This document shows positions 821 to 26,933 of a stretch of 27,636 bases of DNA, piece after piece. The notes under the pieces were generated by a model. It was not told the DNA's origin, ran no database searches, and saw only the letters and a program-made list of their open reading frames with translations. Within the stretch, counting starts at the first letter, position 1, and every line of letters begins with the position of its first letter. Both the position numbers and the translations under genes were made by a program. The stretch is taken from positions 1-27,636 of the forward strand of contig MU602987.1 of assembly GCA_025201865.1 (NCBI GenBank), written 5' to 3'. This stretch comes from Ramicandelaber brevisporus (Eukaryota > Kickxellomycota > Ramicandelaberales > Ramicandelaberaceae).

Positions 821-848
821 GAAAAACAAAAACAAAAACAAAAATAAA
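821..848. repeat. (AAAAAC)n microsatellite
   Basis: A run of AAAAAC-type units ending in AAAAAT. It lies in the noncoding upstream region. Confidence 0.8.
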
Positions 849-1312
849 AGCAGCAACTGGGAAGGATTGCGAGTGAGTGAGCGTGGATTGAGAGTGTGTG
901 GATTGGATGGGCGAATGCCGGAAAAAGGCAATGTGCTGCTGAATCGAGGAAGCTGTGGTAATCAAAATGGCACCGGATATGTATGTGGAACAGCGAGCGG
1001 ACCCGAGAGCACAACACGTGGAACGCGAGATAGAGAGAGCGACAGAGAGAGACAGAGAAAGAAAGAAAGAAAGAAGAGGAAAAAGGACAGTGTGGTCGAT
1101 GGCGCACAGAGCAGGCAGCTGTTCGCTGGTTCTCGACTGGTGGTGGCTGGCGAGTTAGATGCGAGCTAATTAATTTGTATTGAAGACAGACAGAATGAAA
1201 GACAGAAACCAAGCGAGCTCGGCGAACAGAAGGAAGCCGAGAGTGGTGACTGTGCTGCTGACGCTAAATGGACTGCGAAAACGTTGCAATCGAAGGGGAT
1301 ATTTGTGTGTGT

Positions 1313-1393
1313 GAGTGCAAGTGCGAGTGCAAGTGCAAGTGCAAGTGTGTGGGTCATCAAACACAGTCGCAGTCGCAGTCGCAGTCGCAGTCG
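1313..1393. repeat. Two adjoining hexanucleotide repeats, GTGCRA and CAGTCG
   Basis: Bases 1313-1348 are built from GTGCAA/GTGCGA units. Bases 1364-1393 are five exact CAGTCG units. Both are multiples of three, so they leave frames open on both strands and create false ORFs. Confidence 0.85.
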
Positions 1394-1490
1394 CCATCGC
1401 TGAATGGTAAATGCTCCGAAAGTATTGCAAGTCCGAAATTGCTCGGGCCAGAGAGCGCTCGGTGATGAAAGCGGTGCGTCAATGAAGGTT

Positions 1491-1517
1491 GCTGAGTATG
1501 CTGAGTATGCTGAGTAG
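1491..1517. repeat. 9-bp tandem repeat, 3 copies
   Basis: Three units of GCTGAGTAT, the last ending in G. Confidence 0.8.
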
Positions 1518-1840
1518 AGACGGGGGGTGCGGCGATGGTGGCAGCTCGATTGACAGCGCGTCCGCAAATGGGGGCGGATGCGAGGATGCGAGGTGATTGA
1601 CGAAAGTCTGAGCACACAAGCCACCCGAATATGGGCGAAACGCTGCTCATGAACGGCAGAGTGCGATACACGTACGTTTATGGTATGGGATATGGCTGGT
1701 GCTGTCGATGTATATCGAGAGAAAAAACAACAACAGCAACAACAATGACGAGGATATATGAGGGATATTTGCGATATGACGAGTCAGTTGGAAAAGACGG
1801 AAGGCCGATCGCGCTCTTCAACAACGTTCCACTGGGGTGG

Positions 1841-1848
1841 TTTATATA
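1841..1848 (-). promoter_or_regulatory. TATA box candidate
   Basis: The minus strand reads TATATAAA here, a strong TATA-box match. The nearest recognisable start downstream on this strand is the homeobox ATG, about 1.6 kb away, which would imply a very long leader or an upstream intron. It could also be a chance match. Confidence 0.35.
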
Positions 1849-1980
1849 GACTCGCAGATGATGATGGAGAAATCGAAGGATACTGGCAGCTGGAGACTGG
1901 CCGAATCAAAATATACTACGCAGGCAAAAACAAAAAGAAGAAGAGGAAAAAAGAACAGGGCGGATAAAACGCCAAGAGCC

Positions 1981-2007
1981 GATGCGTGCGATGCGTGCGA
2001 TGCGTGC
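1981..2007. repeat. 9-bp tandem repeat, 3 copies
   Basis: Three exact units of GATGCGTGC. It lies upstream of the TATA candidate as read on the minus strand. Confidence 0.85.
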
Positions 2008-2640
2008 AATACGAGTGCGATATGTGTCGTAGTTTGATTGACGAGGACGTGTGGACTTTCTGCAAAGTGCTGACACACACACGCACACAGACGCACGCAT
2101 ATTGCAAACAAACGCCGATTCGTTGGGCTTGGACCGTGTACTGGTAATCAAAACTTCTCTCATTTGCATAAAACGACTGTCCCTTCGACCGAATGTGATT
2201 CGCAGACTCATAAATCAAGACGGCGAAAATATTGGCTGGCGGCGATGCAATCTATTCACCGCCTCAATGGTAAGCCAGGGGAAAGGGAGAAATGGAAAGA
2301 GATGATGGCTCTGTTGAGCGCCAGCTAATGGCAGACAGACAGAGAAAGAAAGAAAGAAAGAGATGTGTGTAGTGTAGTGGAGTGTGCGATCATATCCGAG
2401 ACGGCGAAAAAAAACACTCGCGATGAGGCACACTTGGTAGTGTCGATTGGTTGATTGGTAATGATGATCAAACACAGACATTCATTCGCAGATTCCTAAT
2501 ATAGATCAAGTATGATAATAATCATGGTTTTAAATAGTAATTATTATAGATAGATAGATTATGGTAATCAAAACACACAAAGCATAACAAATAAAGTCAG
2601 TAAACAACTATTTATAGTACAAGTACATGTAAGAGTACAC

Positions 2641-4079
2641 TTGGCTCGATGAGGACGGATGGGGCTCAGACATCCAAGGAAGAAATTGGGCTGTCACAGA
2701 CAGACTCTGCACATCAACAGAGGCATATTGCTGTCGAGCAACCCATGCCACAAATCATCCAAGCTTCCAGCGGCTACATCAAGTGCGGTACTTTCTGGGA
2801 GGCAGGAGACGAATCTACAACCGCCCACCCGGAATCCTACAAGAGATCATGCCAGACTGGATGGGTTCTTGAACGCGCAGCAATGAGATTGCCCATGACA
2901 GCACCTCCAAGTCGAAGGCATACTAGCGCCTGTCTTCAGTGGAAACTGCGAATAGGAAAAAAGCATCATCATCGCGGACAGCCATCCTCATCGAAAAGGG
3001 AATCTTGCAGCACAAGAAACAAAGCAGGAGCAGAGGGGACATACCATTCAGGTTATAGCTATAACCAATCAGCCAATCAGCCAGCTAGTCTTGATAACTG
3101 TACTACAGAATATACACACATATTGCAAACATAGAATCAAATGAAAGAGACACAGCATGTCAGTATCAATGTCTGCACAAAAGCAAGAGGCTAAACCAGA
3201 GCAAGCAATAGTAAATTGACAATGGATGGAGGTCAGACCTGGATCTGTTGAGAAATTGTACTGGCAAGTACGAGCTGTGAGACCAAAAACCAAGAGTGCC
3301 GAAACACACATTGGCGGCCAACACAACCAAGGGGTCACCATGGTCGATATGTCGGGGAAAGAAATTGTCATCACTCCAGACATCCATTGTCAGCAAATAA
3401 TAGTAATAGCAGTATTAGTTGTAATACAAGATAAACATACCATTCATGTCAACATCTTTTGAGATGTGAGTATAATACAAGTCTATACAAATATGAGAGA
3501 ACACAAGTGATAACAACAATGTCAATACAAATTGTGCGATACCTAGTTGGTACTCGAGTCAAAATGACAATAAAACATGGGCAATGCAGATGATCAGTGA
3601 ACCTTGACTCGTCATTCAGCCCGAAGACTTTCAGACGGCAATTCCTATCAATGTTATTATGTCAAGTTGGTTGTCATCATATCCGTTGCCATAGCACAAG
3701 GCATACAGCCAAAGACGCGGATAGCGAGTGCAACATACCATTCTGCACAACACACATAGAGCACACAGAACACACAGCAAGTAACAAAACAGGCAATACA
3801 CAAACAAACTGTCAGCACAAAACTGCAGATTCTCGATAAGAGCACCCTTGGACTGAAACTTGTTCTTTGAATCAAAGAAAACAAGAATCAGTCCAAGGAA
3901 GGAGTTGGTATCCGTCACTGGAACACTGTCTTTTGCGCTGACATAAGTCCTACTTTTACCGTGCTTGACCACAGTGTTTCATCATAATGTTTTCGCAAAG
4001 AACAAGAGATCAAAAGAGAATGCGTGTGTTACGTGACAAAGTGAATCATACCTTCGTGTGGTAGAGTGGGCACAAGTAA
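2641..4079. other. Stretch without an identified gene
   Basis: I could not identify a gene here. The best coding-like patches are 3226-3390 on the plus strand (codon use looks ordinary and balanced) and 3795-3972 on the minus strand (about 59 codons, Lys-rich, opening after in-frame stops). Neither begins with an ATG that fits an exon model, and neither resembles a family I know. Three copies of an 11-mer that reads GAATGGTATGT on the minus strand could be intron donors, but I could not connect them into a reading frame. A multi-exon gene or a gene relic is possible. Confidence 0.4.
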
Positions 4080-4740: not shown

Positions 4741-6185
4741 TCTCCATGAACCAGCTTTGTACTCTGCACGCTCTCAGCCAGCAGCGTTTTTTTCGTTGTC
4801 TCCTTTTTTCGCTGTTTCTTTTTTTCCCCGCCGATTTACACAGTCGATCTGTGCAAAATTTTCATGGCATTTAACATGGTTATCCTCGGTTGCGTGTATT
4901 AAAAAGAATCAAATTTATCAAATATTGACTACAAACACTCATCTAAAACCACATTGTTAGTATAAAACCCCATCATAATTCATGTTTCTATGACCAGTTT
5001 TACCACCTGCATCGATTGGCGACGTCAAGAACAGCGGTTTTCTAGGACCATTTCTGCGATATCGGCTCAAAAAGAACAAAAAACGGGTGTATCGGCGACT
5101 AATGCACGTAGAAAGATGCGGAAAGAAAGCCAGATATGCTTGAGGATCGAATGAACCAGGGCCAAGTGTCGATAAGCGGCGATGTGTGCGTGTTTTGGAG
5201 CTGTCCCAGCAAGTCGCGCGGCCGTTGATTTTTGCACAATTTCGGCAACGCGAAAATGCGTCGGTCACATTATATGGTCAGTAGCGTCGCCAACCACCTA
5301 TAATCACACACACTGTCACACTTGTTTCTAGGTAATTCGACACCGTAGAATCACATGGCGGCGTCAGAATAGTGTCTCAAGAAGGTGTAATGTAAGCTAC
5401 TCACAGTTGAATATTGAGGTTTGGGAGAAGTCGACTAGCGAGACAAAGAATGAACCGATTTCAATGCGAGAACAGTGCCTCGTGTACTCTGGGACATACT
5501 CTACAACTTTCTCTAATCTCACTTTAACAATAGTGGTCATCCTGAGGGTGTTCCAATATGACCTTCTGCAAGCCATGCTCATCGGCGTGACTTGAGCGAT
5601 TCGACTGATTTTTTTCAGCAAAGTCGAACAAGTCCAGCCTGCTTTCCACTCGATTTTTTTCAACTCTTTTTTTTATTCTTTGCGGTCGACGATGATCACG
5701 ACGAACGAGTGAACGGACGACAGCGACAGCGGTGAACAACGGTGCGAGCGGCAGCTACAGTAGCGACTGACGATGTTTTGCAGAGGAGACGATGACGACG
5801 GAACGAGTAAAGTATGAAAGACGAGATGAACGACGGCAGATCGAGACACAGCGAACGAACAAGCGACATATTGAATGAAAAGAGTAAGTGAACACGGGAC
5901 AGCGCGATGGCTTGCAGCACATCCATCACTCGGAGTTGACTCTCGCTGACTTGCGATGGACTAGACGGCACGGCTGAATCAATTCCATACATGCCTGGCA
6001 CATTTCTTCCCTCGAGCTATAACGAGCTTTGACATCCTTCCTCTCCGAATGTATCCAGACAATCGACCATTTCTCCCCTGACTAATCGACTCCATTTGAT
6101 ACGTGTCAAATTGAGATGAAGCGGCGGTCGTGGCCCATTCTCGGCGATGCTGTCGGCGACATTGCACATCCGGCGGTCGTGATTC
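4741..6185. other. Stretch without an identified gene
   Basis: Several ORFs of 60-100 codons overlap on both strands and none is recognisable. Plus-strand pyrimidine tracts lie at 4787-4830. The longest plausible plus-strand frame is open from 5332 to 5597 and has no ATG until 5464. Minus-strand frames around 5700-6180 are also open but would need frameshifts or introns to join. A small spliced gene is possible; nothing firmer can be said. Confidence 0.35.
4961..4967 (+). promoter_or_regulatory. TATA box candidate
   Basis: TATAAAA on the plus strand, about 130 bases after a T-rich pyrimidine block. No convincing gene follows, so it may be a chance match or mark a short or spliced transcript. 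Confidence 0.25.
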
Positions 6186-6878: not shown

Positions 6879-8377
6879 TTATGTGGAGGCTGATATTCTC
6901 TTCTTGATTTGTTTCTGAGTATTTTTGAACCAACTATTGATCTTTTCGACTTCCACACCAGCCACTTTAGCCAATGCACATCTCTTCTCATTTGATGGAT
7001 AAGTACCTTTCTCATGTTTCAGTATCCATCTTGTGACATACATCTTCATCTTTGGGTGCATATAGCTATTGCCTGGAGGCCATACACCATCTTCAGCTGG
7101 TATTGTGTCCAATATTGCCACTGCTGCCGATATTGTCAAGGTGGCGTCACTGTTGAGCAAACTGATAACATCAATTGCCTCCTGTAAGAGAAGACACTTG
7201 GTAAATGACTGGGTACCTGGCAGTACATTTCGAAGTTGTTCAATTGCATGATTGAGCTTCTCTTCAGACGATTGATCAGTGGCTGCAGCTGTAGTTGTAA
7301 TGGTTGTAACCGATGATGTGGTACTATATCTAGTTGAGAGAATTTGCAGAGTTTTCTGAACAATCTTGAGCCGAGTCAGTGAATGAGTCTCATCAATCAA
7401 TCCACGTAGCTGATTAATGAATAATCCAAGAATTGCATCATCTCTTTTTTGACAAACATTAGTGTGATGATCAAGCACGTGTTTGATTAACGATGAACTG
7501 GGCAGCGGTTGTTGAACCTTCTGCTGAGCTTGCTGAATCTGATGCCGCTGTTGTTCAGTTTTGCGTGGCTGTGAGGTTTTAATCTGATCAACAACCGTAT
7601 CAGTCAATGGATATTGTTGCTGAACCTGCTGAACTCGCTGAACCTGCTGAACTTGCTGCTTCTGTATGGATGACGATGGTGAGATTGAGAAGTCAGATGG
7701 AGGAGGTTTTGGGAACGATTCTTCAGCAATTTCAGATCCCTCAAGAGGCAAAGATGTCGCAATTGATACTGATGGTGCAGATTGGCGTGGTTGTTGTTGC
7801 TGATTCTGACTCTGATGTTGCTGTTGTTGCCACTGAGATACAGGTGTCAATGTTGCTGCCGCGGTTGATGTGGAAACAGGACTGCTTGTGGTATTCTGTT
7901 CTTGATGAGAACACGAATGTGGCAACTGCTGTTGATTAATATCGAGTGATGAGTCAATATGGTAATCGTTGCCGCAGTTGCTGGTATCGACTATCTGTTG
8001 CAGCTGCTGTTGTTGAACTTGCTGTTCCTGCTCTGAAGTTGATATCGTAGATAGGAGATTGTGTGATTCGATATATTTAATGGCATCCAGCAGTAGTTTC
8101 GGCCTGGGTGTTGATTGAGTGCCCGGTATCACGTCTCGAAGTTGCTTGATTGCATCATGAAGCTTCCACGTAGATATTGGAATTGTGGTTGGTGAGATTG
8201 TTTGCAGAGCTTTCTGAACCACTTTGCGCTGACTCAATGAAGGTGGTGCATCAATCAACCCGCGCAGTGTATCGACAAATGTTTTGAGTTTGTTCCTGTA
8301 TTTGTTAGTATAAACTTTCAACTTTTCATGGTCTATCTTTTTTCTCGTTGACACACTTTGTTGCTGTAGCTGTGATG

Positions 8378-8408
<31 letters not shown>

Positions 8409-8411
8409 AGA
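6879..8411 (-). CDS. HLH-like / homeodomain protein, 5'-truncated copy of the mosaic family
   Basis: The frame is open from 8411 to the TAA at 6879-6881 but contains no ATG until just before the homeodomain, so the start is missing. In order it encodes: a Ser run from a TCA repeat; a basic segment STRKK; an HLH-like module (L-H-D-A-I-K-Q-L-R, a loop with P-G-T-Q, then L-L-L-D-A-I-K-Y-I); a long Gln/Ser/Pro linker; a second HLH-like module with the same pattern (L-N-H-A-I-E-Q-L-R, P-G-T-Q, L-L-L-Q-E-A-I); and a C-terminal homeodomain with TYPSNEKR and the helix-3 motif WFKN followed by basic residues (about 6888-7080). The Y-P-S loop suggests the TALE (KN) class. Bases 8000-8372 are, by eye, about 90% identical in inverted orientation to 15283-15650. 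A nuclear DNA-binding role is inferred; the piece may be a pseudogene. Confidence 0.7.
8374..8408. repeat. GAT/TCA triplet repeat at the head-to-head joint
   Basis: An interrupted (GAT)n run. On the plus strand it encodes an Asp run leading into the oxygenase ORF; on the minus strand it encodes a Ser run leading into the HLH/homeodomain ORF. It is the exact meeting point of the two truncated ORFs. Confidence 0.85.
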
Positions 8412-9435
8412 TTATGTTCCAGAGAGTGATGACGATAGCGAGAGTGATGGTGACGACGATGAAAGTGACGATGAGGATGACTGCGGCAATGTTGGCATTA
8501 GCGGTGTGACATATTTGGTTCCTGAGCTGTGCAAGATGAATGTGTACAAGGAAGGCGACATGTTCCGCCCTCATGTAGATACGATTACGGATCCTCGCTT
8601 GGTGGCTTCGCTGGTGCTTTGCCTGCCATCCCCTTTCACCGGAGGTGAGCTCACTGTTTCGCATGGCGACGACAAGCATGTGGTCAAGTTTGGAGGCTCT
8701 GGTGTCGATGCAAATGAGGATGAGGATGAGCAATGCAACTGGGCAGCCTTCTACACCGACTGCGTCCATGAGATTCTGCCAGTAACTTCCGGCTACCGTG
8801 TCACTGTCACGTACAACTTGCTGGGTGTGAGAGATGGTATCCAGCGCTCTCCGCTGGTCATCGACTCGCCTATCATCTCTGTCTTTAGAGCGGTGCTTGG
8901 ATCAGGTTTTAAAGGTAAGCTTGCTGTTCCTGCCCAGCATGCGTATCCACACACATCTGGTCTCAAGTTTGAGCTGAAAGGAGCTGATGCCGTCGTGTAT
9001 TCCGCAGCCAAGAGTCTCGACCTCAGTGTCAAGTTGGTTCCATTTTCCACCGACACGGACCTGCTAGAGTGCCTTGATCCAGACCGTGACGTTGACGATT
9101 TCCACGAAGGCGAAGATGATATTCAGTATAGCGATGATGAGAACGCCAATAAAAATGACGAGGGTGAAGACGATAACAATAATGGTGGCCGAAATCATGG
9201 CAAACGATTTAAAATCGGCGGGTTCTACTATAAGAACTTTTCGAGAGTTGACATGCTCACCACAGGTGGCGACTATGGTAGCCGATTTGAGAACATTCAT
9301 GGATCGAAGCGTATCGTTTGGATTCCGGCACGCGATCCGTTTAACGAACAAGTTAGTCATGGTGGATATGCGTATGGAAATGAACCCACTGCGACGCTTT
9401 GGTATACCCAAGTCGTCATTGTTCTCACTATCTAA
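8374..9435 (+). pseudogene. 2-oxoglutarate/Fe(II) oxygenase (prolyl-4-hydroxylase-like), truncated at both ends
   Basis: An acidic Asp/Ser/Glu stretch leads into a Fe(II)/2OG dioxygenase core. The metal ligands are visible: HxD in FRPHVDT (His at 8572, Asp at 8578) and the distal His in DCVHEI (8767). The 2OG-binding Arg follows in SGYRVTV (8797). The strand LVLCLPSPFTGGEL is typical of the fungal members. The frame opens at 8314 but has no ATG before 8536, inside the fold, so the real start is missing. The C-terminal part has an acidic insert and ends at 9433-9435 right after a conserved-looking YGNEP...LWYT segment; from memory, relatives continue beyond this. The active site looks intact, so a functional product spliced to another exon cannot be excluded. 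Confidence 0.65.
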
Positions 9436-10426
9436 AATAGATAAGCTAGATTATAAGTTCATCTTTAAACGTAGCAATCGTCATTTAGAACGACCAGGCA
9501 GCGACTCGGTCCTACGACATACTCCCACGAGCCAGGCACGACGCTGGCTGTGCGGCTGTTGGTCGATATGTCCCGGTACCAGTAGCACTTGTTTGGCAGC
9601 TCGTGTACAACTCCTGTAGCTCGGGTGGCAGTGGCGGCAGCTTCGCGGCTTTGCCTGGCGATGCCTGACCTGCGACGATTCCCAAATGATGAGGTGCCAG
9701 TTCACTGAACACCTACTGCAAGCGGAATTGAATCGTCCTGCTCGAGGTCAATGTGGCCGGACTCAGCTGAAGCAGTTGCAGTGCGGGTGTTTCTGTAGCT
9801 GTGCGTACGGCGTCATGTGCATGTCACTGTCACTGTCGTTGTTGTTGTTTTGTTTTGTTGTGACTCTCGAAAGAGAAACGATGAAGAAACAAATCTGCTA
9901 GCAAAACCTCCCACTTCCACGTTTCATTTCTATCAGATTGCTCGTTTGAAGTATGAGCGATGGCGAGCCACCACAGTCGACTTAATCACCGGTTTGCAGC
10001 TGCCCATCTTGTGTTTCCAACAGCGAGGTCGTCACTATTTCCGTCTGACACCCTGCCAGCTTCACCTCTATCAGCCAGTCCACGGCGAGGAGCATACCTG
10101 TGCAAAGTCCAGTCGAGTCTGCTCATTATGGCATCGTAATTCCAGCAGCGCGCCAATGGCAAGTGATGACAGCTATCTTGCACTCCTGAGACGGCTGTCG
10201 ATGTTGCTGGTCTGCATCACTTTTTGTTTGGATGATCATTATCGACAGTAATGAGGTGATTTGTCTTCAGTGTTGCTTGTTGCTTTTTGGAATGTGGCGG
10301 TTGATTGAGGCAAGGAACACAATGCTTAATTGACAAACGAAAAGACAAATGGACATATCAGCATACACCGTCGATCACTGACCCGGTCTTATGCGCCACT
10401 TTGTCTCTTCATTGCATTGCTCTGAG
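9436..10426. other. Stretch without an identified gene
   Basis: Short frames are open on both strands (minus 9512-9712, Pro/Leu-rich; plus 9900-10250) but start without ATG or inside other frames, and none resembles a known family. The minus strand near 10096-10103 reads CAGGTATG, which could be an intron donor. This may hold relics of the missing 3' part of the oxygenase gene or of its former neighbour. Confidence 0.35.
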
Positions 10427-10429
10427 AAT

Positions 10430-10491
<62 letters not shown>

Positions 10492-10495
10492 AAAC
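10427..10495. repeat. AAC/CAG triplet repeat in the leader
   Basis: (AAC)n followed by (CAG)n and then AAC/AAA units, just upstream of the SR/USP/EEP gene start. It is open in all frames, so it wrongly extends the ORF upstream. Confidence 0.9.
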
Positions 10496-10565
10496 AACTT
10501 GTTCCTTCTTTCTTTCTCATTCATCGCAACAATATCACTACTCCAAATTGCAACAAACACATTCA

Positions 10566-13324
10566 ATGAGTGCTCATTCTCGTCCACATCGCTCTCGCTC
10601 GCGCTCATCTGTGCGTGATTCACGAGATAGGCGACGCCGTGATTCTCGTCCACATCGCTCTCGCTCACCTGTGCGTGATTCTCAGCCAGCTCACTCCAAA
10701 CTAATCAGCGCTCCAAATGTCATTGCGATCGTGGTACTCCTTGCTCGAGACACTGAGTGGATCGATACTCTCAATGTTGTATTAAGGGAACTCAAAGATA
10801 TGGAATTGGACCGGAAAGAGATCCTATGGCGAGACTTGCTTGAAGCGTTTTTAACACTAGCGAACCAGCTCGTATATCATTCATTCGATGTAGCGAGGCT
10901 TGCTTCCTCAATTCAGTCACTCAGTCACAATCACATCAACTCATTTATCAGCTTGTTGGATAAAGCGAAGCAACAATCTTCAGGGAAAAAAGGTATCATC
11001 TATATTCTACTCCGTTCTTTTGGTAAAAGTGCATGTAATGTTGGTATGGCTGACACCTACAATCGCCAGTTTTGCTTTAAGGCTCAGAAACTGTATACTT
11101 GCAAGTGTGAGAATGGCAGGCTTGTTAACATGGATTACATTGGTATTAAAGTATCAGGCCACTGTGACTTAGAGAAAATGGTGACTGGTAAATCATTGTG
11201 TGCAAAGAAGTGCAGACCAGGTGGTTTGAGTTATAGATATCACTCTGCTCCAACCACCCTTTACATCAGAATATACAATGAAAGCTCCCTTGAGATGACC
11301 ATCAATGGTACAATAACTATCTCAGATGTAAATGGCATTAAGCATAAGTACAAATTAGATACACTGAGTTATCACGATTCACGTTTTGGACATCTTGTAA
11401 CTGCCATTTATCAAAACAGTCAGTTGTTCCAACTTGATACCAGTGGTACCTACCAGCCAGTCCCCGGTGATTTACTCAATCGGGATGTCTGTACAGGTAT
11501 CCACTATGTTCGATATAAGCGTGCCGAACACGACAACAATAACACCAGCAGCAGCATCAGTTACAGTGGATTGACTTCAAATGTATCACCAGCAGACAAT
11601 ATGTCAACACCAAATTCACAAGCAACAGAAACAGCAACACAGCATTCAACCAACTCGCATGGTTCAAAGTCACGCCCAGTGCCATACAATGCTGAAATTC
11701 CATCGCACTCTCTGCCTCCGCCAGCTATCATTCCATCTGTTTCTTCTGATCAACAGGAACGGCAGCAGAAAGAGCAGTCCAATGGCACACCAATAGCCTC
11801 AACTCAAGCTGTGCCTGCGAAACGCAACCATAACAATGCATTTGATGATGCACCACTCTCGCCTCCTTATCCACCATCAGCAGCAGAGGCAGCAGCAGCA
11901 GCACAGGCAACATCAGCAGCATCAGTATCAATTACTGCCACATCTGTTGATTCTAACCTAGACATGGACGAACTAGACTGTATGTTTGGTCATGGTTGGA
12001 GATACACTCGATCAGTACCTCCTCCATCCACCTCATCAACTGATACTCCCAATGATCATATCAGCATGAATTCTGTTAAAAAGAAGCGCAAAATTGTGGA
12101 TGCAGCTTCATCCAGTGATCCATCCGCTGTTAACACTGCTACTGCTGCTACTGCCTCATCACAAACTGAATCATCTGTTCCTCTGCTGCTTGGTGAATCA
12201 TTTACAACATTGGATGGAGGGAGCATCTCATTTGATGAACTGTCATTGGAAATGCAAAATTACTTGGAAAAACACACAGATTTGACAATGGAGCATCAAC
12301 AATGCATCATTAATACATGGCTGTTAATTGATAAGAGACAGAAAGAAGAAATCAGCAGTGATGCCGCTAATTTACTTCCACAGCAACAGCAGCAACAGCA
12401 ACAAAGAATAAGAGCAGCAGCAGCATCGTCAAAGTCATCCAACAAAGAATGCATTATATTCGACCAGCCGGCTCCAACAGCCAATTCCGACACTGTAATT
12501 GTGGATAAACCAACACTAAAAGTATGTACAATCAATCTCAGACATGTTAATGGCATTACATTCATCCAATACATCAATCATTACCTCAACAAGTATCCAA
12601 TAATAGCATTCACAGAATTCAGTAGCGAGATGATGGATGGTATCAAAATGCATTGTAAGAGTATAGCTTCATCCGGTAATAATAACAATAGGTATGAAAT
12701 ATATGGTCATGGAAGAGTAGCAATGCTGGTAAACTGTGCCAGTATTAAATCAGTCATTGATGTAGAGCTAAAACAATACTTTGCTGGTTTCTGTTCAAGC
12801 ATGCCACTTGCAGCTGATACGGACATTGCAGCTCACAAGGGCGACTTCGCCAACAGGTTTGCAGTTTACAATGTCAAAATGAGTAATGGAACAATGCAAT
12901 CAATAGCCATCGCCTATTTCCATTCTGATTGGTCTAAAAATGCATCTATTCGTATTTTGTTTGGTAAATACATTGAGTATTGTTTAACCAGAATTGAACT
13001 TCATCCGTCGCGAATGGTAGTTGGCGACTTCAACAGTGTGGGCAGTTGGATGGATAGAGCCAGAAACGCACGATTACCCACTGCAAAAATAGAAGACCGT
13101 AACAGTGAAGAGTATCAATGTTGGTTAAAGAAGCATAGAGAAGAATGCAAACATCATCGTGAATCAGTGCTCTTGCCACTGTCGCGCGCTGGATTCATTG
13201 ATGGCATCCACCTTGCACGCTGCATTCAAGGTGAATCTGTTGACATCAGTAACATTAGCTTCCGCTTTTCGTATTATTATCAATTACACCCTGTCTCAGC
13301 TCTGGACTTGGTCTTTCTACCACC
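10566..13324 (+). CDS. SR-rich / USP-like / EEP-domain protein, 3' end in assembly gap
   Basis: The start is ATG 10566-10568; upstream the frame is only triplet repeat and leader. Residues 4-40 are an SR domain with two near-identical copies of a SRPHRSRS...VRDS unit. Residues about 160-320 resemble the C-terminal half of ubiquitin-specific proteases: CxC (11100, 11106) and CxxxC (11199, 11211) as a possible zinc ribbon, then FGHLVTAIY with the catalytic-type His (11391), an Asp (11436) and a final YVRYKR strand. The N-terminal Cys box of USPs is absent. A Ser/Thr/Gln-rich linker follows, with an SV40-like nuclear signal KKKRK (about 12078) and a Gln run. From residue about 650 an EEP domain starts (NLR, FTEF, GDFN at 13023, LDLVF), running into the Ns. 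No introns. Function unknown; host gene or mobile-element gene are both possible. Confidence 0.75.
11927..13324 (+). repeat. Duplicate unit A, left of gap (1,398 bp)
   Basis: Collinear with 13455-14852, same length, no indel seen. The first 121 bases are identical and the last 361 differ at one base (13072); the middle carries roughly 60 substitutions by eye, many of them changing amino acids. Confidence 0.9.
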
Positions 13325-13454
13325 NNNNNNNNNNNNNNNNNNNNNNNNNNNNNNNNNNNNNNNNNNNNNNNNNNNNNNNNNNNNNNNNNNNNNNNNNNNN
13401 NNNNNNNNNNNNNNNNNNNNNNNNNNNNNNNNNNNNNNNNNNNNNNNNNNNNNN
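13325..13454. other. Assembly gap, 130 N
   Basis: Unsequenced. The two flanks are the end of one copy and the beginning of another copy of the same 1,398-bp unit, as expected when two overlapping but diverged contig ends are placed side by side. The true distance, and even the existence of two tandem copies, is uncertain. Confidence 0.95.
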
Positions 13455-14852
13455 ATCAATTACTGCCACATCTGTTGATTCTAACCTAGACATGGACGAA
13501 CTAGACTGTATGTTTGGTCATGGTTGGAGATACACTCGATCAGTACCTCCTCCATCCACCTCATCAACTGATACTCTCAATTATTCTTTCAGTATGACTT
13601 CTGTTAAAAAGAAGCGCAAAATTATGGATGCAGCTTCATCCAGTGATCCATCCGCTGTTAACACTGTTACTGCTGCTACTGCCTCATCCCAAACTGAATC
13701 ATCTGTTCCTCTGCTGCTAGGTGAATCATTTGCAACACTGGATGGAGGGAGCATCTCATTTGATGAACTGTCATTGGAAATGCAACATTACTTGGGAAAA
13801 CACACATATTTGACACTTGAGCATCAACAATGCATCATTAATTCATGGCTGTTAATTGATAAGAGACAGAAAGACACAGTCAGTGGTGATGCCGCCAATT
13901 TACTTCCACAGCAACAGCAGCAGCAGCAGCAAAGAATAAGAGCAGCAGCATCATCGTCACAGTCATCCAACAAAGAATGCATTGTATTCGACCAGCCGGC
14001 TCCAACAGCCAATTCTGACACTGTAATTGTGGATAAATCAACACTGAGAGTCTGTACAATGAATCTCCGACATGTTAATGGCATTGCATTCATCCAATAC
14101 ATCAATCATTACCTCAACAAATATCCAATAATAGCATTCACAGAATTCAGTCGTGAGATGATGGATGGTATCAAAATGCATTGTAAGAGTATAGCTTCAT
14201 CTGGTAATAATAACAATAGGTATGAAATATATGGTCATGGAAGAGTAGCTATGCTGGTAAATTGTGCCAGTGTTGAATCAGTCATTGATGTAGAGCTAAA
14301 GCAATGCTTTGCTGGTTTCTGTTCAAGCATGCCACTTGCAGCTGATTCTGACATTGCAGCTCACAAGGGTGACTTCGCCAACAGGTTTGCAGTTTACAAT
14401 GTCCAAATGAGTAATGGAACAATGCAATCAATAGCCATCGCCTATTTCCATTCTGGTTGGTCTAAAAATGCATCTGTTCGCATTATATTCGGTAAATACA
14501 TTGAGTATTGTTTAACCAGAATTGAACTTCATCCGTCGCGAATGGTAGTTGGCGACTTCAACAGTGTGGGCAGTTGGATGGATAGAGCCAGAAACGCACA
14601 ATTACCCACTGCAAAAATAGAAGACCGTAACAGTGAAGAGTATCAATGTTGGTTAAAGAAGCATAGAGAAGAATGCAAACATCATCGTGAATCAGTGCTC
14701 TTGCCACTGTCGCGCGCTGGATTCATTGATGGCATCCACCTTGCACGCTGCATTCAAGGTGAATCTGTTGACATCAGTAACATTAGCTTCCGCTTTTCGT
14801 ATTATTATCAATTACACCCTGTCTCAGCTCTGGACTTGGTCTTTCTACCACC
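13455..14852 (+). repeat. Duplicate unit B, right of gap (1,398 bp)
   Basis: Second copy of unit A, offset by 1,528 bases. It keeps the reading frame open through the whole EEP domain. Confidence 0.9.
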
Positions 14853-15235
14853 CCATTTGTTATCTGGAGCAGCCATCCAGTATGGACCTGACGGAGGCAT
14901 TATACCATTTTTGGATCACAGCGCAGTTAGTTTACACTTGCCATCGCCAGCTACTAGTGTTGATGATACTCTTGGTGCAATCGATATTCCATCCTGCTAT
15001 CTGGAGGCACTACCAATCCCTACCATCATGCCAGATATACATGCACCTGCTGACTTTCACACAGTGACTAACACGTTCAGGTTCGATATTAATGGCAGTA
15101 ACTTGGGTGGTATTAGTATGCATGCATCCATCTCTCGCTCTTCTATTCAGCACATACATCCACCACAATCAGTTGCGAGCTATCTGTTCTTAAAAGGGAT
15201 TACCAGACGTAGCAATGGTGCAGTCCGATCATCAT

Positions 15236-15280
<45 letters not shown>

Positions 15281-18200
15281 TATCTCCACCACAACTACAG
15301 AAACAAAGTGTGTCAACGAGAAAAAAGATAGACAATGAAAAGTTGAAGGTTTATACTAACAAATACAGGAACAAACTCAAAACATTTGTCGATACACTGC
15401 GCGGGTTGATTGGTGCACCACCCTCATTGAGTAAGCTCAAAGTGGTTCAGAAAGCTCTGCAAACAATCTCACCATCCGCAATTCCATCTCCCGCTAGGAA
15501 CCTTCACGATGCAATTGAGCAATTTCGAGATGTGATACCGGACACTCAATCAACACCCAGGCCGAAACTACTGCTGGATGCCATTAATTATATCGAATCA
15601 CACAATCTCCAAGCCACGATATCAACTTCAGAGCAGGAACAGCAACAACAACAACAACAACAACAACAGCAGCAGCAGCAGCTACTGCAACCACAAGACC
15701 AGCAGCAGGCCCAGCTCTTTGGTACACTTGGTTCGTTCTCAGGTGGCCCATATCCTGCACTGTCGCTAAACACAATGGACTTGACTAGCATGTCGCAGTT
15801 CATTCAGCCAGTGTCTGCTGTATCTGTTGCAAGCAGCATGAGTATTGTGTCTGACAACATGCTCTCTCCAAACGCTACGTTTTATGGTGGTGCTGGTAGC
15901 AATGTAAACCCAAATGTGGCTTCAACTCTGCTGTCTGCTCAGCTCTCGGCCGCGACTGGCGCCACGCCGTCCGTGCTCAATCTGAACACACCAACGCCTT
16001 CGGCTGCTGGTCGCAAGCCAGCCCATATCCGCAGCTCGACTGCGCACGACGTTCCTGCCTCAGCGGCCAATTCCACCTCCAAGCTGGTTAACGCCGAACT
16101 CGCTGGTGCATATGCAGGAAGCGTCATGGCGGCCAAGGCGTTCGCTGGCAGTGCAAGCCCGTGCTCAGGGGTGCGCTCAACTTCTCAGAACTTGCAAAGG
16201 TCCATCTCGCCTGCAACTGCTCTCAAGGCATCTCCGGCTGCAGCTGGTAGTAGTCAACAGCAGCGCAAGTTCTCTGTGAACACATTCCAGTTTAAGGATG
16301 GCAATCTGACTCCATTGCTACCCAACACGAGCGCATCAGCTACTGCTCCAGGTACCAGCGCACTGCAAACTATTATTAATGACGACAAGGCACAGAGCAC
16401 TCCACCACTGTCATCAATTGCCACCTCAAACAGTAACTTGCTGACTGCGGCTACACCGATCCCAGTGATTGGCTTCTCTGCTGATGCATCTGCTGCCGCT
16501 GCCGTGACATCTGCTCTGATGACCAGCTCAAACAGCGCAGCTGCAGCAAGCGGCGGATTGAACCTTGGACTTGGATTGAATCTTGGATTGCCAGCCAGCC
16601 GTACAACTAGCTTATTGGAGCCATCGCCACTCATTTCAGCCGGTAACGCAGGAATGAACCGATCACTGTCAGTGATTGGCGAGACTATTCAGCAGCAATT
16701 GCAGACTCAAAATGACTTGCAGGCTATGCTACAATCTATTTCTGGACAGCAACAGCATCCATCTGCGTCTTCTCTTGTACTGCCAGCCTATGGCCAAGCT
16801 GGATCATTCCTCTCCACTCAGCTGGCTACACCTGCAAGCAACAGTAGTGCTAACATGCTTGCCCACAGTGCAGCAGCAGCAGCAGCAGCAGCAGCAGCTC
16901 ACATGCGTACACCAAGCGATGGACTCGGCATATCTGGCACAACACCAACAGCAACATCAACAATGATTCCCAGCGGTACTGTGAGTGTGTGTGGATTTAC
17001 ACCTGAAGCCAGTGCTGGTTCAGCAATGTTTTTGCCTGGCGGACAATCTGTGGACGAGGTTGCATCTGCTGCAGTCGCTGCCGCCATGGCTGTGACAAGT
17101 GTCCCATCAACTGTTCCCAGTGGCACTGCAAGTGATTTTGGTGGCTACTCAGTGTATGGCGATGTATTTGGAAACGCAGTTAGCAATGTATACACCAAGC
17201 CCGAAGTGATTAACGAGGACTCTGAAATGATTTTTGGTTCAAACAAGAGCAGCAACATTGATTACTTGGTCAATCCATCTTATGCTGATTCTAACTTTGC
17301 AAACATCATTATTGATCATCATGATCCAGCTAGTATGATTAACATTTCTGCGCAAAGCACTAATCAACTAGCAGTTGGTGGAAGTGGAACTAGAGCCGGA
17401 CGTGGTGGTCGTGGACGTCACCGCCGTACTAAGAGTGCATTGGCCACAACAGATGATGGAACTGAGCTAATAACAATGGGAGGCACAGATGGAACACCTC
17501 TGCAGTACAAGTGCCCGCATCCAGATTGTACAAAGACATTTACTCGTCAGTTTAACCTACGATCTCACTTGGCATCGCATTCATCCCAGAGACCATATGG
17601 CTGTCCTCATTGCGAACGCACATTTAGCCGTAAACATGACCAGCAGCGCCATGCCAGATTGCACACTGGATATAAGCCATATACATGCCCTGGATGCCAA
17701 GCTGGATTCTTCCGCACAGATGCACTGCGTAGACATTTGAAAGCCACTCCTAACTGCCAATCAGTAGTTGATCAAATGGATGAGCCTCTATTTAAGAAGG
17801 CGAGACGTGGTGGTTCTAAGGCTGATAACAATGGCGATAACAGACACCGTAGCGATAGTGGCGCCAGCAACACCTCACTCTCTGACATTGCATTGAACCA
17901 GATCAAGTACGAGTCTGACTCGCAGCCAATCAATTTGTTTGCCATTAATAGCAATATGGGTGCATTTAATACTCAGCTGCAGCAGCATCACCAGTATCAC
18001 TTTTCAGACACTGGACTGGAAGTACCCAGCGTTCTTATGCCACATGAGCATCGTCGTACTAGCTCCGGCCCTGAATTCCATGCCAATGCCGAGCAAGGAG
18101 AAGCACAATCTCACGGAAAATCAGAGTTTGCACCAATTCCGTTATACCATCCCCAGCAACTCCAGCAACAGCAGCAGCAAGTCCAGCAGCAGGCTCAATT

Positions 18201-18477
18201 AATGTATTCTCATTATCCGGCTCTTCAAGTTGCTACTTCCCAGATTCCATCTCAGCTCCAATCCATGAACATTGCTGGAACTGCTGATTTCAATCCCAGT
18301 ACAAGTGATTTCTACAACTCTTTGGCTAATTCGGCTAACCTTGGTGACATCATCAACCATCACAATGCTGGTAATGGCACTAGCATGGTGTTGGACATGA
18401 CCACAGCAACTGCCACTACTTTGAGTCAATCGCCCTCCGATGTGTTTGGATTGATGCGTGATGTGTCCCAGCATTAG
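13455..18477 (+). CDS. EEP / HLH-like region fused in frame to a CRZ1-like C2H2 zinc-finger factor (5' end in gap)
   Basis: One uninterrupted frame of about 1,670 codons. Part 1 (13455-15690) belongs to the mosaic family: the nuclear signal KKKRK, a Gln run, and a complete EEP domain with Asn 14062, Glu 14143, YFH (His 14449), GDFN 14551, Asp 14833 and DH 14914; then a Thr run and one HLH-like module (about 15300-15620) ending in a CAA/CAG tract. Part 2 (about 15690-18477) is a CRZ1-like transcription factor: a long Ser/Ala/Thr/Gln-rich region, a basic RGRHRRTK patch, and three fingers at 17512-17580, 17602-17664 and 17686-17757, the third of C2HC type, in the order and spacing of calcineurin-responsive CRZ1. 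Part 2 could also start on its own at ATG 15775. CRZ1 factors move to the nucleus when dephosphorylated by calcineurin. Whether the fusion is expressed, or is a misjoin at the CAG tract, is open. Confidence 0.7.
15238..15279 (+). repeat. (ACT)14 microsatellite, encodes Thr run
   Basis: Fourteen exact ACT units between the EEP and HLH-like modules. The inverted copy has a TCA/GAT tract at the equivalent place. Confidence 0.95.
15640..15681 (+). repeat. CAA/CAG tract, encodes Gln run at the fusion point
   Basis: (CAA)n then (CAG)n. Similarity to the minus-strand family copy stops in this tract, and CRZ1-like sequence begins after it. Confidence 0.9.
15754..15771 (+). other. Candidate calcineurin-docking motif (PxIxIT-like) PALSLN
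   Basis: PALSLN fits the relaxed PxIxIT pattern (P, any, hydrophobic, any, hydrophobic, polar) and sits just before the possible internal start of the CRZ1-like protein. A second candidate, the LxVP-type LEVP, is at 18016-18027, after the fingers. Both are short motifs and could occur by chance. Confidence 0.35.
16869..16898 (+). repeat. (GCA)n tract, encodes Ala run
   Basis: A triplet repeat inside the CRZ1-like part, read as poly-Ala in frame. Confidence 0.85.
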
Positions 18478-18896
18478 CCATTGACTACTCCGCATACACA
18501 CATACAGACATTCCATCCTGTACCCAAATTTATTTTATATACCCTTTCCCGCCCTTTAAATCTCTTGTTTTCGACTGTTGTTTTTTCATTTATGTTTTTG
18601 TGTACTTTTGTTTGCCTCTTTCCATTCGTTCATTTTTATACCGGTTTACTCATTTTTTATTTTAAAGGATCTTATACAATCCATGTTTAACAACTTATGT
18701 TATGTATCCGACAACAGCAAGGCAGTCCGAAGCATCTAACCAAATCGAATATACTTAGTGCATGATTAAACTGTAAACATTAATTAGTATGCAAACGACG
18801 AGTTGTTTAATCAGAATCATCTGGCAATCGCATATTGAAAGTGTCAAATTGTTATGGAAGAGACACTGCCGTTGTTTCTGGCTGATGGATATTATA
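18478..18896. other. 3' flank of the CRZ1-like gene
   Basis: AT-rich, with T-rich blocks at 18530-18660, consistent with a 3' untranslated region of the plus-strand gene meeting the end of the minus-strand zinc-finger fragment. No clear polyadenylation signal stands out. Confidence 0.5.
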
Positions 18897-19562
18897 TTAA
18901 TCACTATAGTCACTCAGCACTAATTCATCGCCATCATCGTAATCACATTCGCTATTATACTGATTGGTAGAGTCATTTGGCATAATACTGTCTGTATCTG
19001 TGTCCAGCCGAGTAATGAAAAAGCACAAAGTGTGTGCTTTACCAAAAAGCAATCGCAGTACAAGAGCAGGAACCGTCGACAGTTGTTCACCTCTATGCTC
19101 CCTACAGTGATGATGACTCCTAGACATTTTAGTGGAACAACAATAGCCACAATCGGATAAAACACACAGCCAACCTTGAATAATATCTGGATGCTGCAGC
19201 TGACTGGAGTGATTGATTGATGCCGCGAGATGTGGATTGCTGGTATGTTGATTGATATTGGGATCGGCATTCGCCTTTACTGCATTTTCTGGTAGAAACT
19301 CACCATCAATTGACTTCTCAGTATATCCATGTTTTTGATGCAAATGAGTTAGTCGTAACAAATGAACAACCCAGTCGTAATGTGATAGCCACAACGAACA
19401 CCATCCACATAAAATCCATCCACCTTTAGATAGTGAAACGTGGGCCGTGTCTTCTTGGTAACTTGCTGCTGCTGTTACTGTCAGTTGACAGCTGGGAGTT
19501 GCATACTTTTTATCATTATTCTTTCCCGCGAGTTTGCTCTCTGTCACACGAAATCGCAACCT
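18897..19562 (-). pseudogene. Two-finger zinc-binding protein fragment (DUF3505-like)
   Basis: The frame is open from 19562 to the stop at 18897-18899 (about 221 codons) but has no ATG before the second finger, so it lacks a start. It contains a first finger with C-G-W-C followed by paired His residues (HLLRLTHLHQKHG), a linker, a second finger with Cys residues in SDCGYCC and His residues in SHHHCREH, then a hydrophobic strand pair (LVLRLLFGKAHT, FFIT) and an acidic tail. The order finger, linker, finger, then a short beta segment resembles the fungal DUF3505 class, often found near helicase or mobile-element genes; this is from memory of the family and not certain. Its 5' end reaches the upstream region of the divergent RGP1 gene, which leaves no room for a promoter. 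Confidence 0.45.
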
Positions 19563-19605
19563 CTATTCTTATACTTTTTTTTTTTTGCCTCTTCTTCTCT
19601 CGACG

Positions 19606-21159
19606 ATGACTGTGTCGATCGGCATGCGCTTCAGCCGTCCTGATGACACGTACTATGCCGGGGAGAGACTAGTGTGCTATGTAACCTTCACCAGCACTGC
19701 TTCGAGCACTTCTCCTCGGCCGTCAGTCTCTGCGCCGATTGTTGCTGCCAGAACATCGTCAGCTGACCCAGCTGCGACCCTCAAGCAACAGCCACAGCAG
19801 CAACCACAGCAACCACAGCAGCAACCACAGCAGCAACCACAGCAGCAACCACAGCAGCAACAGCAACAATCATTGCCACGGGGATCATCATATCTGTCAG
19901 GCTGGCTACCTTCTATTCTAACTAGTGGATTCAATTCTAGAACCAGCGACTCGAAGAATAGTGGCAGTGACAGCCAGTCTCATGTATACGCAACAGATGG
20001 CCAGCAACATCCAGCCCAGGCACAACAGCCACCTTCTCAGCCACAGCAGAGACAGCCTGGTGTTGCAGACTCTGATCAGACATCGCCCATCGATCAGTTA
20101 GAATCACCAATTGACTATCTAATGAAGAATCGGCCTGCTTCAGCTGCTCCAGTTCAACAATTTGACCACTCCCATCAGCAACAGCATCAGTACCAGCAAC
20201 AGCAACAGCAACGGACCACGCAAAATGGACAGATGCAAACTCATCAAGCATTGCCATTGAGACAGCAGATGAAGAAACAAATGTATGGATCACCACCTGA
20301 ACGTATATTGTGGGGATTTGCACAGGCTGTCGGCCAAATGGCTGTAGATCCACGATTTGTGTCGACGATAATGCTGGACGGAATCTTTGATCATCAAATG
20401 TATGGCAGTGCCTCTTCTGTGCACAGTAGCGCTCATGTGCATGGTGGAGGCTCACTGGGCATCCCAATCACTGCTGCATTGCACTCACCTGGTGTGAATA
20501 GAAGAACAAGGAGTGGTTCACACAGTTCAACCAGGACGAGTGAAACAGCCGAGGATGATGGACAAGATGAGGAAGATAGGTTGGTGGCAACATATCCAAC
20601 ATGGTCAAACCCACCAGCATTAATGTTTTGCGATCTCGAATTACACGAAGGTGAATCAAGAACTTTCAAGTACGAAATTGACATCCCTCACAGACTGCCT
20701 CCAACCTATTCACCCGAAAAGGCCACCGCAGCAAAGTTTATTTATTCGCTCACAGTTGTGGCTCAACAAGGTTCACTCAAAAAGTCTGCCTCAGTATCAG
20801 TGTCCAAGACATTCAGAGTGTTACTCTCTAGGGACATTCTGGAACCAATGGTCACTTCAAGAATGCAGCCAGCCAGTGCTAATAATGTATATGATGGATT
20901 ATATGATGTACTGACGCCAATTCTATCAGTCAAAGACAGCTCTTCAATATCGAATCTGTCAAATGCCTCATTATCAACCGAAATCAGTGCACAAAGCAAT
21001 CTATCGCAAAAGCGGCAGTCTATTGCAGGTCCAGTCGATTTGAAAACGAATCCATTCTTTAAAGATATTTTGGCATCCTTACACTCAAAACGAAGGCCAA
21101 AATCGCCACAACGAAAGTCATCTTTACCTCTGTCACCTTCTTCAGTAGTCTCATTCGAT

Positions 21160-21198
<39 letters not shown>

Positions 21199-21996
21199 AC
21201 TTTCAGCGGCGATGATAATGACACAGATGAAGATACAGACGACATCGATGACATTGAGAAACAAGACAGTAGACCAGCTGAAAGCTATGCATTGTCAGTA
21301 TGTCGACGAAAGCTGCCAATATCGTTTGCACTCAACAGTGCGGATGGCCGACGAGTGGGTGTGCTGCATCTGCCAACCCAATTCTTCACCACTGGTTCGT
21401 TGATAGAGGGTGTGATTGATCTTGGGTGCGGCCAAGTGCCATGTTTCCACATATCCATTTGGCTCGAGAGCTTTGAACAGCCTGCAGCCATCAAACCAAC
21501 TACCAGAACCACATCACCTCGAGCGTCCATTTCGAGTGATTCCCCAGTAATGCCAGCAGCATTAACAAACGGATACACTTCACCTCGGAAAAGACGCACA
21601 TCCAGTGTTAGCGGCAGTCTTTTTGTTGGATCCAGTGATGCCGCCACAGTTGCGGAACTTGCCGTTCGATCTCGTCAAGTTCATGCAGAACACCACGAAT
21701 CATGTCGGTTTGTCCACAAATTGGCATTCATGCTACCTGTTCCGATAGATGCAGTGTCGGAATTTGTGACAAGTTGTATCGATCACAAGTGGCAGCTGCG
21801 GGTGGAGCTTGTCGTTGATGCAACCAAGCCGCTTTCATCTCCATCGTCACCACCAATATCTCCGTCACTTCACCAGGCCAGCCAAGTTGTACGGCTAACA
21901 AGACAATGGGATGCACCTGAGCAAGTTAGCGTCGCCAAGCTAAGGTGCAATCTTCCCGTACATGTGTTAGCCATACCGCCATCCTCTCTTAGATAA
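19606..21996 (+). CDS. RGP1: RGP1-like protein, partner of RIC1 in Golgi Rab6/Ypt6 activation
   Basis: ATG 19606 is the first in frame, after a T-rich leader; 796 residues. The N-terminus (RFSRPDDTYYAGERLVCYVTF) is the first arrestin-like strand pair. Diagnostic RGP1 segments follow: LMFCDLELHEGESRTFKYE, IPHRLPPTY, KFIYSLTVVAQ, then HHESCRFVHKLAFMLPVP, HKWQLRVELV, QWDAPEQV and NLPVHVLAIP near the end; each matches the order in human RGP1. RGP1 with RIC1 forms the exchange factor for the Golgi GTPase Ypt6/Rab6, in retrograde traffic. The protein is about twice the human length because of a Gln-rich insert (residues about 65-260), Ser-rich loops and an Ala run (about 21160-21198). No introns. 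Confidence in the family is high. Confidence 0.88.
19788..19872 (+). repeat. CAACCACAGCAG repeat encoding a Gln/Pro run
   Basis: Imperfect 12-bp units of the type CAACCACAGCAG, about seven copies, within the RGP1-like ORF. The number likely varies between strains. Confidence 0.85.
21160..21198 (+). repeat. (GCA)n tract, encodes Ala run
   Basis: About eleven GCA units ending in GCAACAACT, within a Ser/Asp-rich loop of the RGP1-like protein. Confidence 0.9.
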
Positions 21997-26762: not shown

Positions 26763-26933
26763 TTGCGTACGCACACCATTGATCTTTTTTTGCTTTTCTC
26801 TTTTTACGATACTGTCCTTGCTGACCTTCACCGTGTTGCCTTTAACGGGGAATGTGGCGAAACATTCGCATTCGTGTCTACTTTGACTTCTCCCAAAAGA
26901 AAAAAACTAATAACAACAATAACTGACACACAC

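Follow-up and report, generated by a model that had tools for sequence, protein, structure and literature searches.

Homeodomains are a textbook case of conserved DNA reading. KRAB zinc-finger proteins combine a conserved effector with selected DNA-meeting residues, a logic comparable to that of PRDM9. PAN2 and USP39 are pseudo-USPs, which keep the fold of the ubiquitin-specific proteases (USPs) without the catalytic Cys, and PAN2 is joined to a DEDD-type nuclease. In PRDM9, one study places selection at the protein-DNA interface (PMC2779102). For OdsH (Odysseus), a fast-evolving Drosophila homeodomain, the base-contact residues are described as conserved except in D. mauritiana (PMC10917504). 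Here we describe a multi-copy gene family of the little-known soil fungus Ramicandelaber brevisporus (Kickxellomycotina), which unites a USP-like domain, an EEP nuclease and a homeodomain. Two partial copies lie in the window, the whole stretch of 27,636 nucleotides analysed here, which is the entire scaffold C299 (GenBank MU602987.1) of a 17.9 Mb assembly in 510 contigs (GCA_025201865.1).

New in this family is the presence of purifying selection on the EEP domain beside positive selection at the reading positions of the homeodomain, together with the shuffling of modules between copies. We know of no natural protein in which a pseudo-USP and an EEP nuclease are combined with a homeodomain, and a search of the open-access literature, a limited test, gave none. 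Three protein searches returned 11 homologous proteins in total, all from R. brevisporus (6 of the 7985 candidates scored, then 5 of 2042 and 6 of 7996, the last six with the alignment from the EEP to the end as query); these searches need common 5-residue words and similar length, so that distant fungal kin could escape them. Judged by title, none of the 30 papers listed, out of 33 naming the genus Ramicandelaber, concerns the family.

A constrained EEP domain and a diversifying homeodomain

The EEP domain is recognised by its modelled fold. The modelled stretch, at 14029-15636 on the plus strand, holds the EEP in about its first 310 residues, followed by a linker and an HLH-like module. Its Foldseek comparison with the PDB gave 67 matches at E<=0.001, and 48 of the best 50 of these 67 are named EEP-fold proteins; the remaining two, 7nzm_D and 9nb9_E, are chains of phosphatase complexes that presumably hold DNase I. 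The residues N, E, D-x-N, D and D-H, which we take to be the EEP catalytic residues, are invariant in every row of the alignment that covers them (18 rows, several partial). The initial annotation had proposed an EEP domain with all its motif residues, and both the predicted fold and the residues bear it out. The Pfam models PF03372 and PF14529 found no match in scans of the window and of the family frames, nor did PF14529 find anything in a search of the genome, which is a sensitivity limit of the models and not of the fold. A sequence search of solved structures likewise returned only homeodomains and MYC2-type HLH proteins at useful scores, with no EEP and no USP.

The top Foldseek match for the EEP is TRAS1, and the highest identities in the VIA table are those of LINE-1 endonucleases; families missing from its rows are not counted as excluded. 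TDP2, APE1, PDE12 and ANGEL2 are also among the structural matches. This is what would be expected of a nuclear RNA or DNA-repair regulator with a CCR4/TDP2/ANGEL-like EEP, in which the HLH and homeodomain tail would be a fast-evolving protein- or DNA-binding accessory. PAN2, a precedent for a pseudo-USP with a nuclease, and the SR-rich start of some copies point the same way. We nonetheless consider such a regulator unlikely, since the LINE-1 endonucleases give higher identity and since a multi-copy, species-restricted family with selection on its reader is unlike housekeeping deadenylases or repair enzymes.

Selection was measured as omega, the ratio of nonsynonymous to synonymous rates, pairwise by the NG86 method and by a codon maximum-likelihood program written for the purpose (GY-type, F1x4, IQ-TREE topology). 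By NG86, omega is 0.18-0.34 for the EEP within classes, 0.35-0.69 for the USP-like domain and 0.59-0.93 for the HLH and homeodomain tail. Maximum likelihood gives 0.352 and 0.243 for the EEP in two trios, 0.91 for the HLH and middle part of the tail and 1.09 for the homeodomain overall. The EEP is under purifying selection. The homeodomain statistics use six DNA copies (contigs C435, C252, C359, C47, C7 and C199). The annotated proteins P0001, P0003-P0006, P0008, P0010 and P0011 were left out as they have no homeodomain tail or represent a locus already present as DNA, and the minus-strand copy of the window and the copy on C246 were left out as their tails are too divergent for safe alignment.

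Positions 47, 50, 51 and 54, which we take to be base-contact positions of the homeodomain and chose beforehand, are under positive selection. Together they have an omega of 7.1 against 1 (likelihood ratio 23.65, p 1.2e-6, six copies). With position 50 removed it is 5.8 (p 2.4e-4, six copies), and the four copies that are gap-free around position 50 give 14.4 (p 1.4e-7) and 16.0 (p 3.1e-5). For comparison, 60 random sets of four homeodomain columns, each fitted from one start with 60 iterations, have a median omega of 1.11, a 90th percentile of 2.26 and a maximum of 5.28. Neutral star-tree simulations of the four positions (2000 for each of 8 settings) give P from 0 to 0.0095, and the four positions lie above the neutral expectation in all 15 pairings of the six copies (P <0.001 to 0.036). 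The same contrast is visible in the alignment, where nine rows show no change at W34-A-K-I-A38, I45 and W48 and positions 46, 47, 50, 51 and 54 are hypervariable; in the entropy test a gap at position 50 was counted as a letter.

An omega near 1 over the tail would also be expected if the tail were decaying and only the EEP and USP-like domains mattered. The values of 0.91 for the HLH region and 1.09 for the homeodomain overall fit such a decay, as does the loss of Asn51 in most copies. Relaxation leads to an omega of 1, however, and the reading positions have one of about 7. Leaving these four aside, the homeodomain falls short of the neutral number of amino-acid changes (259.7 against 358.6 simulated), and of the 55 homeodomain columns 22 are identical in amino acid across the six copies. 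Plain relaxed decay was accordingly rejected, and we regard relaxed constraint as improbable.

Several observations weigh against a DNA-reading homeodomain under positive selection in a DNA-cutting protein. One of the fits, that of the six copies with position 50 removed, reported no convergence. A wider list of 13 sites, presumably homeodomain contacts as well, has an omega of 2.9 and lies above neutral in 14 of 15 pairings, with one pairing at P 0.129. Variability extends beyond the four positions: position 46 is the most variable of all, with 29, 41 and 43 also near the top. The rest of the tail has an omega of 0.92, which, being near 1, also fits weak constraint. There are only six copies and they are related by recombination, which makes the likelihood p-values optimistic. 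Asn51 is nearly invariant in homeodomains, and in the family it is plain in only 2 of 11 rows and ambiguous in one; because it is mostly lost, some copies may no longer bind DNA. EEP proteins also act on RNA, protein adducts, lipids and phosphates, so that the fold does not fix the substrate. Finally, the flanks shared between copies, up to 1.1 kb long, do not show target-site insertion.

The assignment of the homeodomain itself comes from Pfam and from solved structures. In the minus-strand copy of the window, Homeobox_KN matches at 6918-7028 (minus strand; helix 3 INSWFKNTQKQ) with E 7.1e-5 and 23.0 bits, against a cut-off of 24; the same copy reaches 28.6 bits, above the cut-off, in a search of the genome. 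Seven of the 11 genome matches are family copies, all seven above the cut-off, and the TALE spacing is present. The best solved structure is PBX1 (E 7e-6, profile of A2). The second HLH module precedes the homeodomain in the same frame (residues 377-422, from which 7146-7283 on the minus strand was computed). It matches the Pfam models SAC51 bHLH (E 1.2e-7) and HLH (E 5.3e-6), the match beginning within the HLH, and shows the HLH helices; in other family copies the match is weaker or absent.

At the other end of the protein, the USP-like domain was modelled from 292 residues at 10686-11561 (plus strand). It has no Pfam match. The model is poor (mean pLDDT 48), with 6 Foldseek matches at E<=0.001 (best E 1.9e-4), and all of the best 50 matches are USP-family proteins or complexes with one, which points to a USP fold with weaker structural support than the EEP. 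PAN2 is not among these best 50 matches listed, which excludes nothing. In 13 of 13 rows (10 loci), the stretch aligned with the Cys box, placed by eye, has no catalytic Cys, and of the 11 rows spanning the position of the catalytic His, 6 have it. In the window the Cys position is occupied by E and the zinc-binding pattern CxC...C...CxxxC is kept. The USP-like fold first noted in the window is therefore supported by structure search, but since the catalytic Cys is lacking throughout, the domain looks like a pseudo-USP whose catalysis has been lost.

Architecture and spread of the family

The window contains front and back parts of family genes on opposite strands. The back part, at 6879-8411 on the minus strand (an open frame of 510 amino acids at 6882-8411), consists of a first HLH-like module (7995-8382), a Q-rich linker, the second HLH and the TALE-like homeodomain; its relatives were located on C68, C359, C7, C199, C435, C47 and C252. 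The front part is on the plus strand at 10566-13324 (open frame 10566-13322), with an SR-rich start, the pseudo-USP, a linker and an EEP that is ended by an assembly gap. A second front copy, at 13455-15690 on the plus strand (open frame 13456-15690), has the linker, a complete EEP, the first HLH-like module (15282-15669; HLH E 0.022) and poly-Gln. The modules at 7995-8382 and 15282-15669 are inverted copies of each other, 388 nt long with 90% identity, in good agreement with the overlap of about 350 bp at about 90% reported at first. Open frames, Pfam and structure search likewise recover the modules where they had been placed. The two copies may once have been one gene.

Pieces of the family are found on 14 contigs (C299, C323, C435, C269, C246, C252, C47, C359, C7, C68, C188, C170, C199 and C34), a count that includes fragments and is a lower bound. 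Four distinct genes have all three parts in one frame. Two of them are free of gaps: that on C435 encodes 1207 amino acids with the USP-like domain, the EEP, an AT-hook-like GRP, an HLH-like module and a Homeobox_KN match (20.4 bits, below the cut-off, in the frame scan and 25.9 bits in the genome search), and that on C246 encodes 1184 amino acids with the USP-like domain, the EEP and Homeobox_KN (38.5 bits). The others are P0007, of 1151 amino acids, and P0009, of 1228, both annotated proteins that have the three parts in order. EEP and homeodomain are found in a single frame on C359, on C47, C252 and C7 (EEP partial), the last three beside runs of N, and in P0002 and P0004. Other copies are less complete. 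On C269, an N-free frame of 1219 amino acids has the USP-like domain, the EEP and an HLH-like tail and no homeodomain match. C68 has the end of the EEP, an HLH-like module, the linker and a second HLH-like part in one frame, again with no homeodomain match, and on C359 the parts are spread over two frames with an insertion between.

Based on these genes, an undescribed family that unites the three parts in one protein is established. The initial annotation would have dropped this idea if the modules had always been in separate genes elsewhere or if structure had not supported the folds, neither of which is the case. The complete order that it had drawn up fares less well: HLH, poly-Gln, HLH and homeodomain together with the EEP in one frame is a set seen nowhere. 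The SR-rich start is a feature of part of the family, being clear in the window, P0003, P0009, C323 and C188 but short in C435 and P0007 and absent in C246.

Some individual copies deserve mention. The EEP on C359 (locus L018) is interrupted at about 5554-5760 (minus strand) by an insertion of about 0.2 kb with GT...AG ends. By eye, it is flanked by a direct repeat of 7 bp (ATCTACT). The insertion has the appearance of an intron that arose from a small inserted element, and the annotation of protein P0003 splices over it. On C34 (locus L029, frame 1-3519, minus strand) the Q-rich linker of the family lies between poly-Gln runs in an otherwise unrelated frame of 1173 amino acids. P0004 has an F-box-like start (Pfam E 0.0088) on an EEP without its first strand and may be a fusion of gene models.

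Modules have been exchanged between copies. The EEPs fall into three classes, and synonymous divergence (dS) between classes ranges from 1.6 to not computable (saturated). Between C435 and C47, dS is 0.38 for the USP-like domain, saturated for the EEP and 0.24 for the tail; between C435 and C359 the values are 0.55, saturated and 0.22. Recent USP-like and tail modules thus surround anciently diverged EEP classes, and C269, C435 and C246 have one EEP class with different tails, both of which indicate exchange. The linkers between modules are Gln-rich (in C435 with runs at 388-391, 516-521, 952-956 and 987-992), and the exchange may take place in these repeats.

Similarity between copies extends into their flanks. 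The 3′ flanks of C435 and C199 are alike over 1.1 kb (83.5%) and end at the same A-rich point, and on the 5′ side C269 and C323 are alike over 1.1 kb (87%) and C323 and the window over 0.7 kb (88.5%). Paralogues of a 2OG-Fe(II) oxygenase gene lie beside family genes in the window (8314-9435) and on C323 (locus L025, 4517-5998), with another on C474 (90%). Shared flanks and neighbour fit a duplication of DNA segments.

These data also bear on a selfish element of the homing or retrotransposon type, whose EEP would come from a non-LTR retrotransposon, whose homeodomain would pick insertion sites and whose reader would open new sites as it diversifies. The resemblance of the EEP to LINE-type endonucleases, the dispersal of copies and fragments over the 14 contigs, frames without evident introns, the common A-rich 3′ end of C435 and C199, and a dispersed repeat that these two contigs and the window have some 1 kb downstream of the gene are all in its favour. 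Against it, no reverse transcriptase is found in the frame or element of any family copy: Pfam scans of the frames gave no RVT_1, and its 5 genome matches all lie outside the family contigs, on C37, C426, C56, C117 and C384. The flanks examined in part hold no terminal repeats, the few boundaries examined have no target-site duplication of a whole copy, and the similarity beyond the gene, with the oxygenase neighbour duplicated on C323, fits segmental duplication. We therefore rate such an element as possible but rather unlikely. A separate candidate, in which the family would be the front end of a LINE that carries its own reverse transcriptase, was rejected on the distribution of RVT_1.

Two side observations concern the same regions. 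Between the oxygenase and the family gene on C323 (locus L025), the plus strand has at 2688-3437 a frame that by eye resembles the C-terminal part of a LINE reverse transcriptase, and C269 has about 0.5 kb in common with this flank. The dispersed repeat, at 5323-5866 in the window, has matches on C3, C32, C38, C170, C199 and C435 and could aid ectopic recombination.

Neighbours and seams of the window

The family copies of the window are bordered by suspect seams, all of which fall in a triplet repeat or a gap. At the assembly gap of 130 N (13325-13454), 11927-13324 recurs as 13455-14852 with 60 differences in 1398 bp. Such a repeat on both sides of the gap suggests that the front copy consists of two overlapping contigs placed one after the other, probably a tandem duplication that is spurious or allelic. 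At 8373-8416, a (TGA)n repeat and a possible chimeric join, the minus-strand copy meets the oxygenase gene, which is truncated at its 5′ end and is about 150 residues shorter than the C323 paralogue exactly where the copy begins.

The third seam is a CAA/CAG (poly-Gln) repeat at 15638-15695 (plus strand), beyond which the family frame continues after 15690 into a C2H2 zinc-finger gene. Contig C100 ends with the N-terminus of this gene, which reaches as far as the same poly-Gln, and C100 matches window 15655-15901 at 98.4% with 4 mismatches, some of them inside the repeat. Downstream, 17644-19974 corresponds to C28:1-2331 (2331 bases compared) and 26843-27636 to C28:9200-9993 (794 bases compared), each with one mismatch; the match to C28:1-9994 covers these two compared ends, with about 6.9 kb between them outside the comparison. 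Judged from these alignments, the sequence beyond 15690, with the zinc-finger part, is native, and with its N-terminus on C100 and its 3′ part and neighbours on C28 the join near 15690 is probably chimeric. The frame 13129-18477 as a single EEP-HLH-poly-Gln-C2H2 gene was rejected on these grounds, though not conclusively, as C435 (locus L020, 8614-9999, minus strand) has a zinc-finger copy with 97.9% identity to that of the window, also joined through poly-Gln to a family tail without homeodomain. This second join may be an allele, a chimeric contig or a real capture of the zinc finger.

The window therefore has the modules but in a frame broken by the gap and by probable chimeric joins, and alone it could not carry the architecture that was read from it; its copies are weak evidence by themselves. 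One could go further and suspect that the architecture as a whole is a short-read assembly artefact, in which unrelated genes were joined in triplet repeats. This has a good probability for the gap and for the window's two joins, 8373-8416 and 15638-15695. The recurrence of the module order, with all three parts at four or more loci outside the window and with two parts at further ones, together with the protein identity of 35-80% and the conserved non-repeat linkers of these loci, makes it very improbable for the family.

The remainder of the window holds an Rgp1 gene (19489-21993) and a subtilase gene (22341-25304), assigned like the oxygenase and zinc-finger genes by Pfam. The stretch 18876-19481 has 70-75% DNA identity to about 40 places in the genome and apparently belongs to a large dispersed family with zinc-finger-like frames on the minus strand (18897-19562). 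Rfam gave no match on the window. Two DNA searches (38 and 39 scored candidates) missed the known C28 match and were not used for absence.

A proposed homeodomain-steered endonuclease and comparable systems

Taken together, the expansion, the module shuffling and the positive selection on reading positions point to a system in genetic conflict. We propose a species-restricted, multi-copy family of homeodomain-steered EEP DNA endonucleases, a reading to which we give an even chance. These large proteins would act in the nucleus, as suggested by the SR-rich start of several copies, the AT-hook-like motif, the HLH and the homeodomain. The pseudo-USP, no longer a protease, would serve as a scaffold or a reader of ubiquitin or SUMO, and the HLH region would allow protein pairing. 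The EEP would act as a metal-dependent phosphodiesterase, its most likely role being that of a DNA endonuclease of the APE/LINE-endonuclease type, and the TALE-like homeodomain, with its hypervariable recognition positions, would aim each copy at its own DNA target. The protein would then cut or nick changing targets, either in defence (mobile elements, satellites, rival nuclei) or selfishly at sites of benefit to itself. The earlier suggestion of a targeted endonuclease, of a mobile element or domesticated, is strengthened by the selection pattern, while no hallmark of a mobile element has been shown.

More tentatively, the family may represent natural homeodomain-guided nucleases of an early-diverging fungus in which an interchangeable nuclease cassette, the three old EEP classes, sits between exchangeable scaffold and reader modules. 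With a reading code under strong positive selection and module exchange through triplet repeats, it would resemble a programmable nuclease and serve in an arms race that sets it against mobile DNA or one nucleus against another. Trinucleotide repeats also emerge as the likely places at which genes were shuffled, be it in the organism or in the assembly. Should different copies cut DNA at different sites, they would be a natural set of differently aimed nucleases built on homeodomains, with a logic like that of PRDM9 and the KRAB proteins. They would then also offer an arms race open to direct test in a lineage that has received little study.

Compared with known systems, the EEP resembles the LINE-1 and TRAS1 endonucleases in its fold and in the order of GDxN, then DR and a final DH. 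The family differs from them in that it has no reverse transcriptase, is fused to a pseudo-USP, an HLH and a homeodomain, and has less than 20% identity. With PAN2 it has in common a pseudo-USP and a nuclease, of the EEP rather than the DEDD type. The homeodomain is like those of the TALE class (PBX-MEIS) in having three additional residues between its first two helices and WF in helix 3, but its positions 46, 47, 50, 51 and 54 are hypervariable and Asn51 is mostly lost. The base-contact positions, including Asn51, are thus the most changeable and the scaffold is fixed, as if each copy had its own moving target. OdsH is likewise a fast-changing homeodomain, whereas the family varies exactly at the base-contact positions, which in OdsH are reported as conserved apart from D. 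mauritiana (PMC10917504), and has a nuclease attached. The pattern parallels that of PRDM9, where a conserved effector goes together with positive selection at the residues contacting DNA (PMC2779102); in the family the DNA contact is predicted from sequence. The readers of PRDM9 are zinc fingers and its effector is a methyltransferase, in contrast to the homeodomain and nuclease found here. It is this constrained enzyme with a diversifying reader, as in PRDM9 and unlike in OdsH, that leads us to propose a homeodomain-steered endonuclease in conflict.

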